This document shows positions 25,494 to 30,792 of a stretch of 35,678 nt of DNA, in pieces. Positions within the stretch are counted from its first letter, which is position 1, and each line of letters begins with the position of its first letter. The notes beneath the pieces are model-generated. The model ran no database searches. It was not told the origin of the DNA and saw only the letters and a program-made list of their open reading frames with translations. The DNA lies in assembly GCA_903920435.1 (NCBI GenBank), contig CAIXMB010000032.1, positions 1 through 35,678 on the forward strand, read 5' to 3'. Source of the stretch: an uncultured Actinomycetes bacterium (GTDB lineage: Bacteria; Actinomycetota; Actinomycetes; Actinomycetales; Microbacteriaceae). Made by a program: the position numbers and the translations under genes.

Positions 25494-25680
25494 AGCGCGT
25501 GGCGGCGGCGGCCGAAGAACGCGCACGCCAGGGTAGAACAAGGCACGGCCGGGCCCCGCGCCGAAAGATCGCCCGAAGTTAACCGGCCAGCGCCACGGCC
25601 CCGGACGAAGCCCCAACTTTGGGCGAGTAGAGTGCTTTGTGGTCAAAGTGTCTTGACGTCGAGCTATTTTGGAGAATCAC

Positions 25681-26844
25681 GTGGATCTTTTCGAGTACCA
25701 GGCCCGGGACCTTTTCGAGTCCTACGGAGTGCCTGTACTTGCCGGCATTGTTGCCGACACCCCGGCTGAGGCGAAGGCAGCGGCGGAGAAGATCGGCGGC
25801 ACCGTCGTCGTGAAGGCGCAGGTCAAGGCCGGCGGTCGCGGCAAGGCGGGCGGCGTCAAGGTCGTGCACAACGGCGACGACGCGGCGACAGCCGCCGAGG
25901 CGATACTGAAGCTCACCATCAAGGGGCTGCCGGTCAACCGCGTCATGATCGCGCAGGGCGCGAAGATCGCGCAGGAGTTCTACTTCTCCGTGCTGCTCGA
26001 CCGGGCCAACCGCTCGTACCTCTCGCTGTGCAGCGTCGAGGGCGGTATGGAGATCGAGGAGCTCGCGGTCGAGCGCCCCGAGGCCCTCGCGAAGATCGAG
26101 GTCGACCCCATCGCGGGCGTCGACCTCGCCAAGGCGACGGCGATCGCCAAGGCCGGCGGCTTCCCCGACGAGCTCGTCGACAAGGTGGCCCCCGTGCTCG
26201 TGAAGCTCTACGAGGTCTACAAGGGCGAGGACGCGACGCTCGTCGAGGTCAACCCGCTCGTGCTCACCGAAGACGGCCAGATCCTCGCGCTCGACGGCAA
26301 GGTCACGCTCGACGAGAACGCCGGCTTCCGCCACCCGAACCACGAGGCGCTCGAGGACAAGGCCGCGGCCGACCCGCTCGAGGCCAAGGCGAAGGCCAAC
26401 GACCTCAACTACGTGAAGCTCGACGGCGAGGTCGGCATCATCGGCAACGGCGCCGGGCTGGTCATGTCGACCCTCGACGTCGTCAGCTACGCCGGTGAGC
26501 GCCACGGCGGCGTGAAGCCCGCCAACTTCCTCGACATCGGCGGCGGCGCCTCGGCGACGGTCATGGCCAACGGCCTCGACGTCATCCTCGGCGACCCGCA
26601 GGTCAAGAGCGTCTTCGTGAACGTGTTCGGCGGCATCACTGCGTGCGACGCGGTGGCCAACGGCATCGTGCAGGCGCTCGAGATCCTGGGCGACTCCGCG
26701 ACGAAGCCGCTCGTCGTGCGCCTCGACGGCAACAAGGTCGAGGAGGGTCGCGCCATTCTGCGCGCGGCCAACAACCCGCTGGTCACGCTGGCGGACACCA
26801 TGGACGAAGGCGCCGACAAGGCCGCCGAGCTGGCTAACGCGTAA
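25681..26844 (+). CDS. sucC: Succinyl-CoA synthetase beta subunit (ADP-forming)
   Basis: The ATP-grasp subunit of the TCA-cycle enzyme that makes ATP from succinyl-CoA. The 387 residues match the family. Visible: [19 protein letters not shown] at the start, [18 protein letters not shown] in the ATP-grasp fold, and the C-terminal ligase domain with [20 protein letters not shown] and [14 protein letters not shown]...[15 protein letters not shown] chose GTG at 25681 because GGAG lies 6 bp upstream and the encoded protein then begins exactly at the family N terminus; an earlier TTG at 25669 is unlikely. sucD follows after 14 bp. Confidence 0.97.
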
Positions 26845-26858
26845 AGGGCTGTAGAACA

Positions 26859-27749
26859 ATGTCGATCTTCCTCAACAAGGACAACAAGGTCATCGTCCAG
26901 GGCATCACCGGCGGCGAGGGCACCAAGCACACCGCGCTCATGCTCAAGGCCGGCACTCAGGTCGTCGGCGGCGTCAACGCGCGCAAGGCCGGCACCACGG
27001 TCGAGCACGACGGCGGCGTCGTCCTGCCCGTCTTCGGCACGGTCGCGGACGCGATGAAGGAGACCGGGGCCGACACGTCGATCGTGTTCGTTCCGCCGGC
27101 CTTCGCCAAGGACGCGGTCGTCGAGGCCATCGAGGCCGGGATCCCGCTCGTCGTCGTCATCACCGAGGGCATCCCCGTGCAGGACTCCGCGGAGTTCTGG
27201 GCGCTCGCCAAGGCCAAGGGCGGCAAGACCCAGATCATCGGCCCGAACTGCCCCGGCATCATCACGCCGGGCGAGTCGCTCGTGGGCATCACCCCCGCGA
27301 CGATCACCGGCAAGGGCCCCATCGGCCTGGTCTCCAAGTCGGGCACCCTGACCTACCAGATGATGTACGAGCTGCGCGACCTGGGCTTCTCGACGGCCAT
27401 CGGCATCGGCGGCGACCCCATCATCGGCACCACCCACATCGACGCGCTGCGCGCCTTCCAGGACGACCCCGAGACCGAGGCGATCGTCATGATCGGCGAG
27501 ATCGGTGGAGACGCCGAGGAGCGCGCCGCCGACTTCATCCGTGAGTACGTGACCAAGCCCGTCGTGGGCTACGTCGCCGGCTTCACGGCGCCCGAGGGCA
27601 AGACCATGGGCCACGCGGGCGCGATCGTCTCCGCCGGCGCCGGCACCGCCCAGGGCAAGAAGGAGGCCCTCGAGGCCGCCGGGGTCAAGGTCGGCAAGAC
27701 GCCGAGCGAGACCGCGGCGCTCATGCGCGAGGTGCTCGCGGCCCGCTAG
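26859..27749 (+). CDS. sucD: Succinyl-CoA synthetase alpha subunit
   Basis: The 296-residue CoA-binding subunit that carries the phosphohistidine. Visible: the N-terminal CoA-binding region [31 protein letters not shown] near 127-139, and [14 protein letters not shown] with the active-site His252. It pairs with sucC upstream as one operon. Its TAG stop codon also forms the first three bases of the -10 hexamer that fits the next gene, so the operon boundary lies inside the stop codon. Confidence 0.98.
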
Positions 27750-27752
27750 CCT
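27747..27752 (+). promoter_or_regulatory. -10 box beginning at the sucD stop codon
   Basis: TAGCCT, whose TAG is the sucD stop, then six bases, then GTG at 27759. This indicates a leaderless promoter for the first lipoprotein hydrolase. Confidence 0.55.
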
Positions 27753-27758
27753 GCAGAG

Positions 27759-29285
27759 GTGAAACGTCGCCTGCCCCAGCTCGTCGTCGCCGCGGCGGCC
27801 ATCATGGCCGTGCTCGCCGGATGCCAGTTCTTCCCGTCCATCGACCCGATCGACGGCCCCGCCCCGACGGACGCCGACGGCTTCTACTCGCAGTCGGTGA
27901 CGTGGGGCCGGTGCGGCGACGGACTGCAGTGCACGACGATCAAGGCGCCGATCGACTGGGATTCCCCGGCCGATGGCGCGATCGACCTCGCGCTCATCAA
28001 GCACGTGGCGACGGGCACGAAGCAGGGCTCGATCCTGCTCAACCCGGGCGGCCCGGGTGGTTCGGGGTGGGACTACGTCTACTACTCCGGTGACCAGGTC
28101 GCCGGGGCATCCGTCGTCGATGCCTTCGACGTCGTCGGGTGGGACCCTCGCGGGGTCGGCCAGTCGACGGGCGTGAAGTGCTACACCGACGCCAAGGACA
28201 AGGACGAGCAGCTCTACGGCACCTTCGACAGCCCGTACGACACCCAGGGCTGGATCGACGAACTCACCGTCGACATGGAGGCGTACGCGAAGGCGTGCGA
28301 GGCGAACACGGGCGAGCTGCTCGGCAACCTCGACGCGGCGAGCAACGCCAAGGACATGGACATGATGCGGGCGCTGCTCGGCGACAAGAAGCTCAACTAC
28401 CTGGGCTACTCGTACGGCACCTACTTCGGGGCGGTGTACGCCGAACTGTTCCCGCAGAACGTCGGCCGGTTCGTGCTCGATGGCGCTGTCGACCCGCTGC
28501 AGAGCGACTTCGAGTCGCTCAAGTTCCAGATGGCGGGCTTCGACAGCGGGCTGCGCGCCTACATGCAGTCGTGCCTCGACAGCGGCGAGTGCCCGTTCAC
28601 GGGCGACGTCGACACCGCGCTCGGGCAGGTGCGCTCGGTGCTCGACACGGTTGACGACAAGGGGCTGGTGAACTTCGACGGCCGCGTACTCGACTCCGCG
28701 ACCCTCGCGACGGCGATCATCGAGAACCTGTACTCGGAGACCTACTGGACCGACCTCACGCAGATGTTCACCGAGCTGCAGCAGGGCGACCCGACGCTCA
28801 CCTTCACGAGCGCCGACTACTACAACCAGCGCGGCACGAACGGCAGCTACGACTCGAACGCCAATGACGTCTACATCGCCGCGACGTGCGCCGACGGCGA
28901 CTTCCGCACCGACGACGAGTCGACGCTCGACCGCATTGCGGAGATCGACGAGTTCGCGCCGATCCTCGGCAAGTACGCCACCTACGACGACTTCGCGGTG
29001 CTCGACACGGCCTGCACGCACTGGCCGTTCGGGCGCGGAGCCGACCTGCCCTCGACCTTCGAGGCGAAGGGCGCCGGCCCGATCCTCGTGATCGGCACCA
29101 CCAACGACCCGGCGACGCCGTACGCATCGTCGGTCTCGCTCGCCGACCAGCTCTCGAGCGGCGTGCTCATCACGCACACCGGCGAGGGCCACACCGTCTA
29201 CAACCAGGGTGTCGCGTGCGTCGACGATGTCGTCGACGCGTACTTCGTGAGCGGCACAGTGCCGGCCTCAGACCCGATGTGCTGA
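27759..29285 (+). CDS. Secreted lipoprotein alpha/beta hydrolase (tripeptidyl aminopeptidase-like), copy 1
   Basis: A 508-residue exported hydrolase of the streptomycete tripeptidyl aminopeptidase (TAP-like) group. A lipoprotein signal peptide ends in LAGC with Cys22 as the lipidation site, so it is probably anchored outside the membrane. The catalytic apparatus is visible: oxyanion region LNPGGPGGSG (94-103), VVGWDPRGVG (125-134), nucleophile Ser218 in GYSYG, the Asp in GTTNDPATP and the His in GEGHTVY, followed by the C-terminal TAP-like domain with two cysteines (VACVDD, DPMC). It probably trims peptides or esters at the cell surface. A paralogue follows, joined by a 15-bp relay ORF. Confidence 0.9.
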   Translation: MKRRLPQLVVAAAAIMAVLAGCQFFPSIDPIDGPAPTDADGFYSQSVTWGRCGDGLQCTTIKAPIDWDSPADGAIDLALIKHVATGTKQGSILLNPGGPGGSGWDYVYYSGDQVAGASVVDAFDVVGWDPRGVGQSTGVKCYTDAKDKDEQLYGTFDSPYDTQGWIDELTVDMEAYAKACEANTGELLGNLDAASNAKDMDMMRALLGDKKLNYLGYSYGTYFGAVYAELFPQNVGRFVLDGAVDPLQSDFESLKFQMAGFDSGLRAYMQSCLDSGECPFTGDVDTALGQVRSVLDTVDDKGLVNFDGRVLDSATLATAIIENLYSETYWTDLTQMFTELQQGDPTLTFTSADYYNQRGTNGSYDSNANDVYIAATCADGDFRTDDESTLDRIAEIDEFAPILGKYATYDDFAVLDTACTHWPFGRGADLPSTFEAKGAGPILVIGTTNDPATPYASSVSLADQLSSGVLITHTGEGHTVYNQGVACVDDVVDAYFVSGTVPASDPMC

Positions 29286-29299
29286 TGAGTACCGTGTGA
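29285..29299 (+). other. Four-codon relay ORF between the two hydrolase genes
   Basis: ATG AGT ACC GTG TGA. Its ATG overlaps the stop of the upstream gene (TGATG) and its TGA overlaps the ATG of the downstream gene (TGATG). It would let a ribosome terminate and reinitiate twice. There is no Shine-Dalgarno sequence in the junction. It is probably a coupling device and unlikely to yield a functional peptide. Confidence 0.4.
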
Positions 29300-30792
29300 T
29301 GCGCGTCGTCGGGCTCGCGATCGCGGGGGCACTGCTCCTCGCCGGATGCACGGCCGCGCCCGCCCCGTCGGTAGACACCGGTGCTCCCGCCGGGTTCGAG
29401 TCGATCTACGAGCAGCAGGCCTTCTGGAACGCGTGCGGCGACGGGTTCGACTGCACGACGGTGAGCGCGCCGGTCGACTGGTCCGACCCGGAGAGCGACC
29501 GCATCCAGCTCGCCGTCGTGCGGCAGGAGTCCACGAACACCACGAAGGGCACGCTGCTGACGAACCCGGGCGGGCCCGGCGGGTCCGGGTTCGACTTCGT
29601 CTCGTTCGGCTACGCGGTGAGCCCCGCGCTGCGCGCCGACTACGACGTGGTGGGGTGGGATCCCCGCGGCGTCGGCCGCTCGACGCGCGTGACCTGCTTC
29701 ACCGATCCGAAGCAGACCGACGAGCTGCTCTACGGCGCCTACGGCAGCCCGTACCCGTCGACGCAGTGGCTCGACGAGGCCACGACCCGCGAGCAGGGCT
29801 TCGCCGATGCGTGCGCGGCGAACTCGGGCGAGCTGCTGGCCCACATGGACACTGCGAGCAACGCGCGCGACATGGACCTCATCCGCGCCGTGCTCGCCTC
29901 GAAGAAGCTCAACTACGTCGGCTACTCGTACGGCACGTGGCTCGGCACCGTCTACGCCCAGCTCTTCCCGCAGCGCGTCGGGGCCATGGTGCTCGACGGC
30001 GGCTACGACCCCGCCCTGCCCGCCTTCGACCTGTTCCAGCAGCGCATGGTGGGCTTCGACCTCGCCTTCCGCTCGTGGATGCAGTCGTGCCTCGACAGCG
30101 ACGGATGCCCGTTCTCGGGCGACATCGCGGCGGCCCTCGGTGCCGCCACGACCCTCATCGCCTCCGCCGACCAGACCGCTCTCGTGGCCGACGACGGCCG
30201 CGTGCTGGACACCGCCACGCTCGCCACCGGCATCGGTGCGCTGCTCTACTCCACGAGCTACTGGAACGACCTGACCGCACTGCTGACCGCCTACGCGGCG
30301 GGCGACCCGGCTCCTGCCTTCGCGGCGGCGGACGGCGCGAACAACAGGTTCGCCGACGGCACCTACGGCAACACCGTCGAGGTCGCGTTCGCGGTCACGT
30401 GCCAGGACTACGACTTCGCCGCCGACACGACGGCGATCTCCGACCGGCTCGCGCAGATCGATGCGGCGGCGCCCATCCTCGGCACCTTCATGGCGCGCGA
30501 CGACTACGCCCAGCTCGCCACCGCGTGCCGGTCGTGGCCCGAGCCGCCCGCGCAGCTGCCCACGGCGTTCGACGGCGCGACGGTGCCCATCGTCGTCGTC
30601 GGCACGACGAACGACCCCGCGACCCCGTACGCGTGGTCGCAGGCACTCGCGTCGCAGCTCGGCAACGGCGTGCTCATCACGCGCAACGGAGACGGCCACA
30701 CGGGCTACAACAAGGGCAACGCGTGCGTCGACTCGGCGGTCGACGCGTACGTGCTCGAGGGCACGCTCCCGGCCTCCGACCCGAACTGCTGA
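29299..30792 (+). CDS. Secreted lipoprotein alpha/beta hydrolase (tripeptidyl aminopeptidase-like), copy 2
   Basis: A 497-residue paralogue of the preceding protein, with the same order of features: lipobox LAGC (Cys17), TNPGGPGGSG, VVGWDPRGVGRST, nucleophile in GYSYGTW, GTTNDPATPYAW, GDGHTGYNKG and the C-terminal cysteine pair (NACVDS, DPNC). The two proteins align along their whole length, so this is an old tandem duplication; they differ most in the segment after the nucleophile. A GTG three bases upstream (29296) is an alternative start. I prefer the ATG because it couples to the relay ORF stop. Confidence 0.9.
   Translation: MRVVGLAIAGALLLAGCTAAPAPSVDTGAPAGFESIYEQQAFWNACGDGFDCTTVSAPVDWSDPESDRIQLAVVRQESTNTTKGTLLTNPGGPGGSGFDFVSFGYAVSPALRADYDVVGWDPRGVGRSTRVTCFTDPKQTDELLYGAYGSPYPSTQWLDEATTREQGFADACAANSGELLAHMDTASNARDMDLIRAVLASKKLNYVGYSYGTWLGTVYAQLFPQRVGAMVLDGGYDPALPAFDLFQQRMVGFDLAFRSWMQSCLDSDGCPFSGDIAAALGAATTLIASADQTALVADDGRVLDTATLATGIGALLYSTSYWNDLTALLTAYAAGDPAPAFAAADGANNRFADGTYGNTVEVAFAVTCQDYDFAADTTAISDRLAQIDAAAPILGTFMARDDYAQLATACRSWPEPPAQLPTAFDGATVPIVVVGTTNDPATPYAWSQALASQLGNGVLITRNGDGHTGYNKGNACVDSAVDAYVLEGTLPASDPNC

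Follow-up and report, generated by a model that had tools for sequence, protein, structure and literature searches.

A four-codon relay ORF between two paralogous hydrolase genes and the recurrence of in-frame double TGATG junctions within a genus

Two adjacent genes for paralogous alpha/beta hydrolases are linked by a four-codon open reading frame (ORF) whose start codon overlaps the stop of the first gene and whose stop overlaps the start of the second. We put the probability at close to one half (0.48) that this relay is a lineage-specific stepping-stone ORF that keeps the second gene coupled across a shifted start codon. The strict form of the arrangement, with TGATG at both junctions and the intervening codons in frame, recurs at unrelated gene borders within the genus, above out-of-frame controls. 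The relay at this border is found in none of the orthologous pairs.

The junction and its two hydrolase genes

The window analyzed is one whole contig of 35,678 nucleotides from a 3.16-Mb assembly of 204 contigs. The genes of interest, gene 1 and gene 2, lie downstream of sucC and sucD in one run of plus-strand genes, with a gap of 9 nt between sucD and gene 1. The features are as follows.

25669..26844, plus strand: sucC, succinate-CoA ligase beta (NCBIfam NF001913, 520 bits; Pfam ATP-grasp_2); start codon uncertain
26859..27749, plus strand: sucD, succinate-CoA ligase alpha (NCBIfam NF004230, 447.5 bits)
27759..29285, plus strand: gene 1, lipoprotein-type alpha/beta hydrolase, TAP-like (PF08386, 3.3e-24; PF00561, 2e-21)
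29283..29287, plus strand: entry junction TGATG, gene 1 stop overlapping relay start (from sequence)
29285..29299, plus strand: relay ORF of four codons, ATG AGT ACC GTG TGA, encoding MSTV (from sequence)
29296..29298, plus strand: alternative in-frame GTG start of gene 2, within GTGTGATG (from sequence)
29297..29301, plus strand: exit junction TGATG, relay stop overlapping gene 2 start (from sequence)
29299..30792, plus strand: gene 2, paralogous lipoprotein-type alpha/beta hydrolase, TAP-like (PF08386, 1.4e-26; PF00561, 4.7e-20)

The 19 bases at 29283-29301, read directly, are TGATG-AGTACCGTG-TGATG, exactly the layout that the original prediction had described for this border. Gene 1 starts at a GTG and stops at the TGA at 29283-29285, and the ATG of gene 2 occupies 29299-29301, from which the ORF runs to 30792. 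The distance between the genes is thus 13 nt, or 10 nt if gene 2 begins at GTG 29296, in which case the exit from the relay becomes a -4 overlap (GTGA) in place of a -1 overlap. It is only through the relay that gene 1 and gene 2 attain the 1- or 4-nt stop/start overlap that marks gene pairs coupled by termination-reinitiation (TeRe). The further assertion that TGATG is a known reinitiation signal also holds, in that both junctions are true -1 stop/start overlaps, a type experimentally documented in two reports (PMC6728339; PMC10666635). The 19-mer is present in a single copy in the 3.16-Mb genome.

Both proteins carry an Abhydrolase_1 core followed by a C-terminal TAP-like (Abhydrolase_4) domain, each above the Pfam gathering score, as in TAP-like/Hip1-type serine hydrolases, and they are 53% identical to one another. 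Their best relatives in the PDB are entries named Hip1, carboxylesterase A or 'Protease' (E values of 5.5e-76 for gene 1 and 1.4e-66 for gene 2), and the closest named relatives of gene 2 come from metagenome-assembled genomes labelled Leifsonia (77% identical), Rhodoglobus (75%) and Salinibacterium (65%); by these relatives, and the lineage of Rhodoglobus, the window belongs to an actinobacterium of the Microbacteriaceae. Near the N-terminus of each hydrolase is the motif LAGC, which we take to be lipobox-like. Shared domains, the level of identity and these N-termini are consistent with the description of the pair as paralogous lipoprotein hydrolases.

Gene 2 was also predicted to be reached without a Shine-Dalgarno site. 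The match is indeed weak (-2.2 kcal/mol, against a median of -4.3 kcal/mol for 823 called genes), but it is not absent, as a weak GAG lies 9 nt before ATG 29299, and 24% of the 823 genes have a site as weak or weaker. A scan for sigma-70-like promoters returned no site, yet only 0.3 would be expected, and so the result carries little weight on whether gene 2 has an independent transcript. In the one 121-nt stretch folded, the mRNA at the junction has no structure beyond chance (z of +1.40; 190 of 200 shuffled sequences fold at least as well).

In-frame double junctions across the genus

A random 13-nt spacer yields a relay with a probability of about 0.007, and shuffling the spacer of the window yields one with a probability of 0.028. 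The pattern TGATG-N9-TGATG, which encodes ATG, three codons and TGA unless a stop intervenes, has 111 matches in 27 genomes of the genus. Among the 110 examined, eight (the window included) lie between coding ORFs, of which the upstream ends at the first TGA and the downstream starts at the second ATG. By Pfam, the other borders join isochorismatase and GntR proteins; an impB/mucB-family protein and a DNA polymerase III alpha-type protein; ROK and glucosamine-6-phosphate isomerase family proteins; DnaJ and MerR proteins; UPF0102 (yraN) and a Mg-chelatase-type protein (ComM); the exonuclease VII small subunit and DUF4245; and a protein without a Pfam match followed by an S4 protein. Several of the eight have another in-frame start, either a GTG or ATG in the codon just before or one farther upstream; the N-termini at the eight junctions are presumably normal for their families. 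The expected number of double-TGATG junctions per gap length across the 27 genomes is 0.075 using measured dinucleotide rates or 0.31 assuming 6% for each, a rough expectation based on some 86 TGA...ATG junctions for each gap length, as estimated from 534 gene pairs by a custom gene caller.

The out-of-frame control TGATG-N8-TGATG has 91 matches, and none of the 90 examined is a junction. Spacers of other lengths were scanned in 15 higher-GC genomes, with 30 loci scored for each: the in-frame patterns gave two junctions for N6 (33 matches) and three for N12 (32 matches), and the out-of-frame patterns none for N5 (40 matches) and one for N11 (34 matches). Pooled, 13 of 170 in-frame sites (N6, N9 and N12, window included) are junctions versus 1 of 150 out-of-frame sites (one-sided Fisher test, 0.0016; 0.0028 with the window removed), in a comparison whose control is imperfect, as the frame of the downstream gene is closed upstream in part of the N5, N8 and N11 sites and open in the test set. 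This open frame also means that a few of the ATGs at in-frame sites could be internal. The 13 junctions are relays of three, four or five codons at 12 different gene borders, yraN-comM appearing twice (L203 and L429). TGATG-N10-TGATG was tried as a further control and proved useless, since a shift of 15 nt preserves the codon phase and the pattern has hundreds of matches; among the matches listed, none of 32 sites at 30 scored loci is a junction. The other relays differ in sequence from that of the window, and so do not form an interspersed repeat of the MIRU type. An origin of relays by tandem duplication of the junction found no support: in nine double-TGATG relays, the spacers resemble the adjacent gene ends no more than swapped spacers do (P of 0.34 and 0.45).

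A looser definition removes the excess. Three genomes (926 kb, 534 co-directional pairs), unselected for relays except for the inclusion of the window, were surveyed for short ORFs entered at -4, -1 or 0 to +3 and left at -4 or -1. Among the 178 pairs with gaps of 4-60 nt, seven have such a relay, compared with means of 6.75 (sd 1.96) for shuffled and 6.2 for swapped spacers. A start codon is found at the upstream stop in 19 of the 178 junctions (alternative starts of the next gene allowed): eight of these are relays, seven continue out of frame into the downstream gene and four close early. A frame rule is thus not strict, and is at best a tendency of the strict form. Because the wide class is not enriched, we confine the claim to two cases: the strict double-TGATG form, and junctions whose counterparts in relatives are directly coupled.

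The yraN-comM border is of the latter kind, and was picked because relays had already been seen there in two genomes (four codons in G002, five in G023). The end of yraN and its spacing were confirmed by script in 26 of the 27 genomes; in G017, where the script picked another stop, the junction was read by eye. The genes are directly coupled in 21 genomes (11 TGATG, nine NTGA and one TGAATG) and spaced in six, and all six spaced junctions, four of them unseen beforehand, hold an in-frame relay. Those of G002 and G023 are -1 at both ends; G026 has six codons with a -1 entry and an ATGA exit, G019 four codons with the entry TGAGATG and a -1 exit, G005 four codons with a GTGA entry, and G006 twelve codons with an ATGA entry. 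The chance of a relay is 0.002-0.09 per spacer, as judged from random spacers of the same length. The best tree has five gains or losses of the relay, at least three of which are forced by well-supported branches. The sister genomes G023 and G026 (support 100/100) both have a relay, with different exit types and different letters in the 16-nt spacer, and the relays of G005 and G006 are entered at what is the comM start codon in relatives. In G002, a second possible comM start is located 6 nt further on.

The orthologous hydrolase junctions

A protein search over the 27 genomes, that of the window included, located such a tandem hydrolase pair in four (G000, G007, G020 and G016); the loci L032, L033 and L035, whose contigs match those of L003, L005 and L004, respectively, in length and in the place of the locus, were each counted once with them. 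The gene 1 copies of all four genomes group in one clade (100/100) and their gene 2 copies in a second (100/99), in a tree of 22 of the 23 rows (G207 left out) in which the gene 2 clade attaches at an open fork. With each gene in a clade of its own, the tree agrees with the pair having arisen once.

Direct reading of the junctions revealed no relay in any of the three orthologous pairs found (G007, G016 and G020). G020 has a direct TGATG (-1), G007 has TGACCGTG, with a gap of +2 and a GTG start, and G016 has a 29-nt spacer containing a hairpin-like GTTACC-TTGCTCC-GGTAAC. The expectation that the 19 bases would be conserved among relatives therefore fails. Free drift of the junction had been named as an outcome that would refute the relay, and the sequence does drift; the spacing is nonetheless tight in two of the three relatives (-1 and +2), which indicates that close spacing is common for this pair. 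The pair does not need a relay, as G016 has a 29-nt spacer and none. In a draw of 398 genomes of the family, ten of them from the genus and not including G007, G016 or G020, the 19-mer occurs with at most two mismatches in four; the three matches other than the window lie at unrelated places, as neither gene 1 nor gene 2 has a homolog within 1.5 kb of them. Across the genomes searched, the relay at this border is lineage-specific. The spacers of the window and G016 have a short stretch in common, and the former may be an eroding remnant of an older, longer spacer; it may also reflect a start displaced from a former direct overlap of the kind seen in G020.

How the relay might work, and its relation to known systems

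In the stepping-stone mechanism, gene 1 and gene 2 would be translated from one mRNA. Ribosomes ending gene 1 at 29283-29285 would reinitiate at the overlapping ATG 29285, read the four relay codons, stop at 29297-29299 and reinitiate once more at the overlapping ATG 29299, or at GTG 29296, of gene 2. The minigene would in this way exchange one 13-nt hop for two 1-nt overlaps, presumably to advantage, and the relay peptide itself need not matter. A relay would arise by a change at the gene 2 start, and spacers in which the intervening frame closes precisely on the new start would keep gene 2 coupled and tend to persist. Such better persistence would account for both the in-frame excess and the yraN-comM pattern. 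The stepping stone is favored at this border by how little else is visible to recruit ribosomes to gene 2, given its weak Shine-Dalgarno match and the lack of special structure. The relay mechanism originally proposed is thus plausible, with support at the level of the class from the recurrence of double TGATG and the six of six yraN-comM spacers, while the 19 bases are not conserved here.

Its main rival, which we hold to be possible if somewhat doubtful, is that the spacer arose by chance: ribosomes would reach gene 2 by one conventional short-range reinitiation across 10-13 nt, with the four-codon frame as a bystander, hardly translated or without net effect. The absence of the relay at the orthologs and the chance frequency of the wide class both fit this explanation, and so do published measurements. 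Gaps of 13-14 nt reduced reinitiation by 40-80% in three Escherichia coli pairs and left 40-60% in three Haloferax volcanii pairs (PMC10666635), and hence still permit 20-60% of it. A review cites other studies in which coupling was undiminished up to +25 nt (PMC12548453), in which case the relay would be needless. The same review describes phage tests in which ribosomes used the start closest to the stop, which would favor ATG 29285. A bystander is also at odds with the excess of strict in-frame double-TGATG junctions over both the out-of-frame controls and the composition estimate, and with the occurrence of relays in all six spaced yraN-comM junctions.

A fixed expression ratio might follow from the relay, as originally proposed, but two reinitiation steps in series could equally lower the output of gene 2, and the minigene might be an attenuator, capturing reinitiating ribosomes and losing a part of them at the second termination or by drop-off of four-residue peptidyl-tRNA, so that gene 2 would be made at a level below gene 1. 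Drop-off of peptidyl-tRNA is familiar from minigenes. The double step itself and the nearest-start preference in the published tests (PMC12548453) speak for this explanation, which we nevertheless regard as unlikely, as it leaves unexplained why frame-closing double-TGATG spacers outnumber out-of-frame ones. We consider it more improbable still that gene 2 starts independently, from its own promoter, a leaderless mRNA or the weak GAG. The -2.2 kcal/mol duplex does exist and is matched or undercut in weakness by nearly a quarter of called genes, and the sigma-70 scan leaves room for other promoters; against this stand the 10-13-nt gap and the orthologs in G020 and G007, which hold gene 2 at -1 and +2.

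Beyond the stepping stone at this border, we tentatively suggest that short relay ORFs might be a general, selected bacterial way to tolerate start-codon displacement at coupled borders, in which, whenever a spacer opened or shrank, the best-surviving spacers would close the frame on the new start and translationally coupled operons would carry scattered unannotated minigenes of 3-12 codons. Should relays be in use, a ribosome could go through several successive reinitiations after termination, a point relevant to the open question of scanning versus purely local reinitiation; tiny unannotated ORFs would then have a function within operons, and where coupled operons shift their start codons the changes would lean towards the frame rule. 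Natural test cases would be sister species of which one has a relay at a given junction and the other lacks it.

Several known systems share features with the relay. Engineered upstream 'nonsense' ORFs that boost translation likewise consist of a short ORF immediately before the target with an irrelevant peptide; they are synthetic and carry a strong internal ribosome site, whereas the window relay has a weak one at most (PMC13255528). The small ORF mgtQ, between mgtC and mgtB of Salmonella, is also intercistronic and affects downstream translation, although it is described as acting via mRNA stem-loops and ribosome-destabilizing codons rather than a double overlap (PMC8092293), and the one 121-nt stretch folded at the window junction gives no sign of such alternative structures, folding no better than shuffled sequences (z of +1.4). 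Ambiguous GUGUGA starts are corrected by immediate termination-reinitiation (PMC9841429), and the window has GTGTGATG at the gene 2 start, where a ribosome initiating at the first GTG would terminate immediately and might then begin again; in the GUGUGA systems, unlike here, the ribosome is not delivered by an upstream gene (PMC9841429). Mycobacterial MIRUs at gene starts also place a short ORF at the start codon, coupled to the gene downstream, at little cost to expression upon insertion, but they are described as mobile repeats with -4 coupling to the gene (PMC12548453), whereas the window has no repeat, a 13-nt spacer and -1 overlaps at both entry and exit. A search of the open-access literature, mostly of titles and the openings of abstracts, located no report of double stop/start relays between genes. 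In TeRe pairs, direct -1 (TGATG) or -4 (NTGA) overlaps couple translation (PMC6728339; PMC10666635; PMC12548453); the window shares with them the junction signal, which it has twice, a downstream gene poor in Shine-Dalgarno sequence and co-directional neighbors, and it differs in having two junctions in series, via a four-codon ORF, in place of one direct overlap. The best reading of the relay is as a variant of termination-reinitiation coupling whose closest counterparts are single TGATG overlaps and the coupling ORFs borne by MIRUs.

Further tandem hydrolase pairs

Elsewhere in the genome that carries the window, two further homologous hydrolases lie in tandem (G000:C163:51204-54286, within L090), and the matched parts of these two are separated by about 84 nt. 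Adjacent hydrolase pairs of this kind are present in many members of the genus. A tandem pair of these hydrolases also occurs outside the genus but within the same family (G067:C5:138722-141759, in L070); here the matched parts lie about 60 nt apart.

Flanking and orthologous junctions

At window 27749-27765, the GTG start of gene 1, the upstream hydrolase gene, follows sucD after 9 nt and has a nearly nil Shine-Dalgarno (SD) match of +1.0 kcal/mol, with 3% of genes being equally weak. The start may be wrongly called or, alternatively, gene 1 may be coupled to sucD. At the orthologous junction in G016 (L033, about 2918-2952), the hydrolase genes are separated by a 29-nt spacer containing an inverted repeat, GTTACC...GGTAAC, that might draw the stop and the start close to each other or serve some other role.

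Short ORFs at other gene borders

Two short ORFs, of eight codons in L079 (G007) and six codons in L502 (G017), are both entered and left through -4 (NTGA-type) overlaps, and each contains a GAGAGGAC-like SD stretch serving the next gene. As read from their sequences, these ORFs would be ribosome site and relay in one. A double-TGATG relay of five codons is found in L428 (G021), flanked by an SdhA-like gene on one side and an SdhB-like gene on the other.
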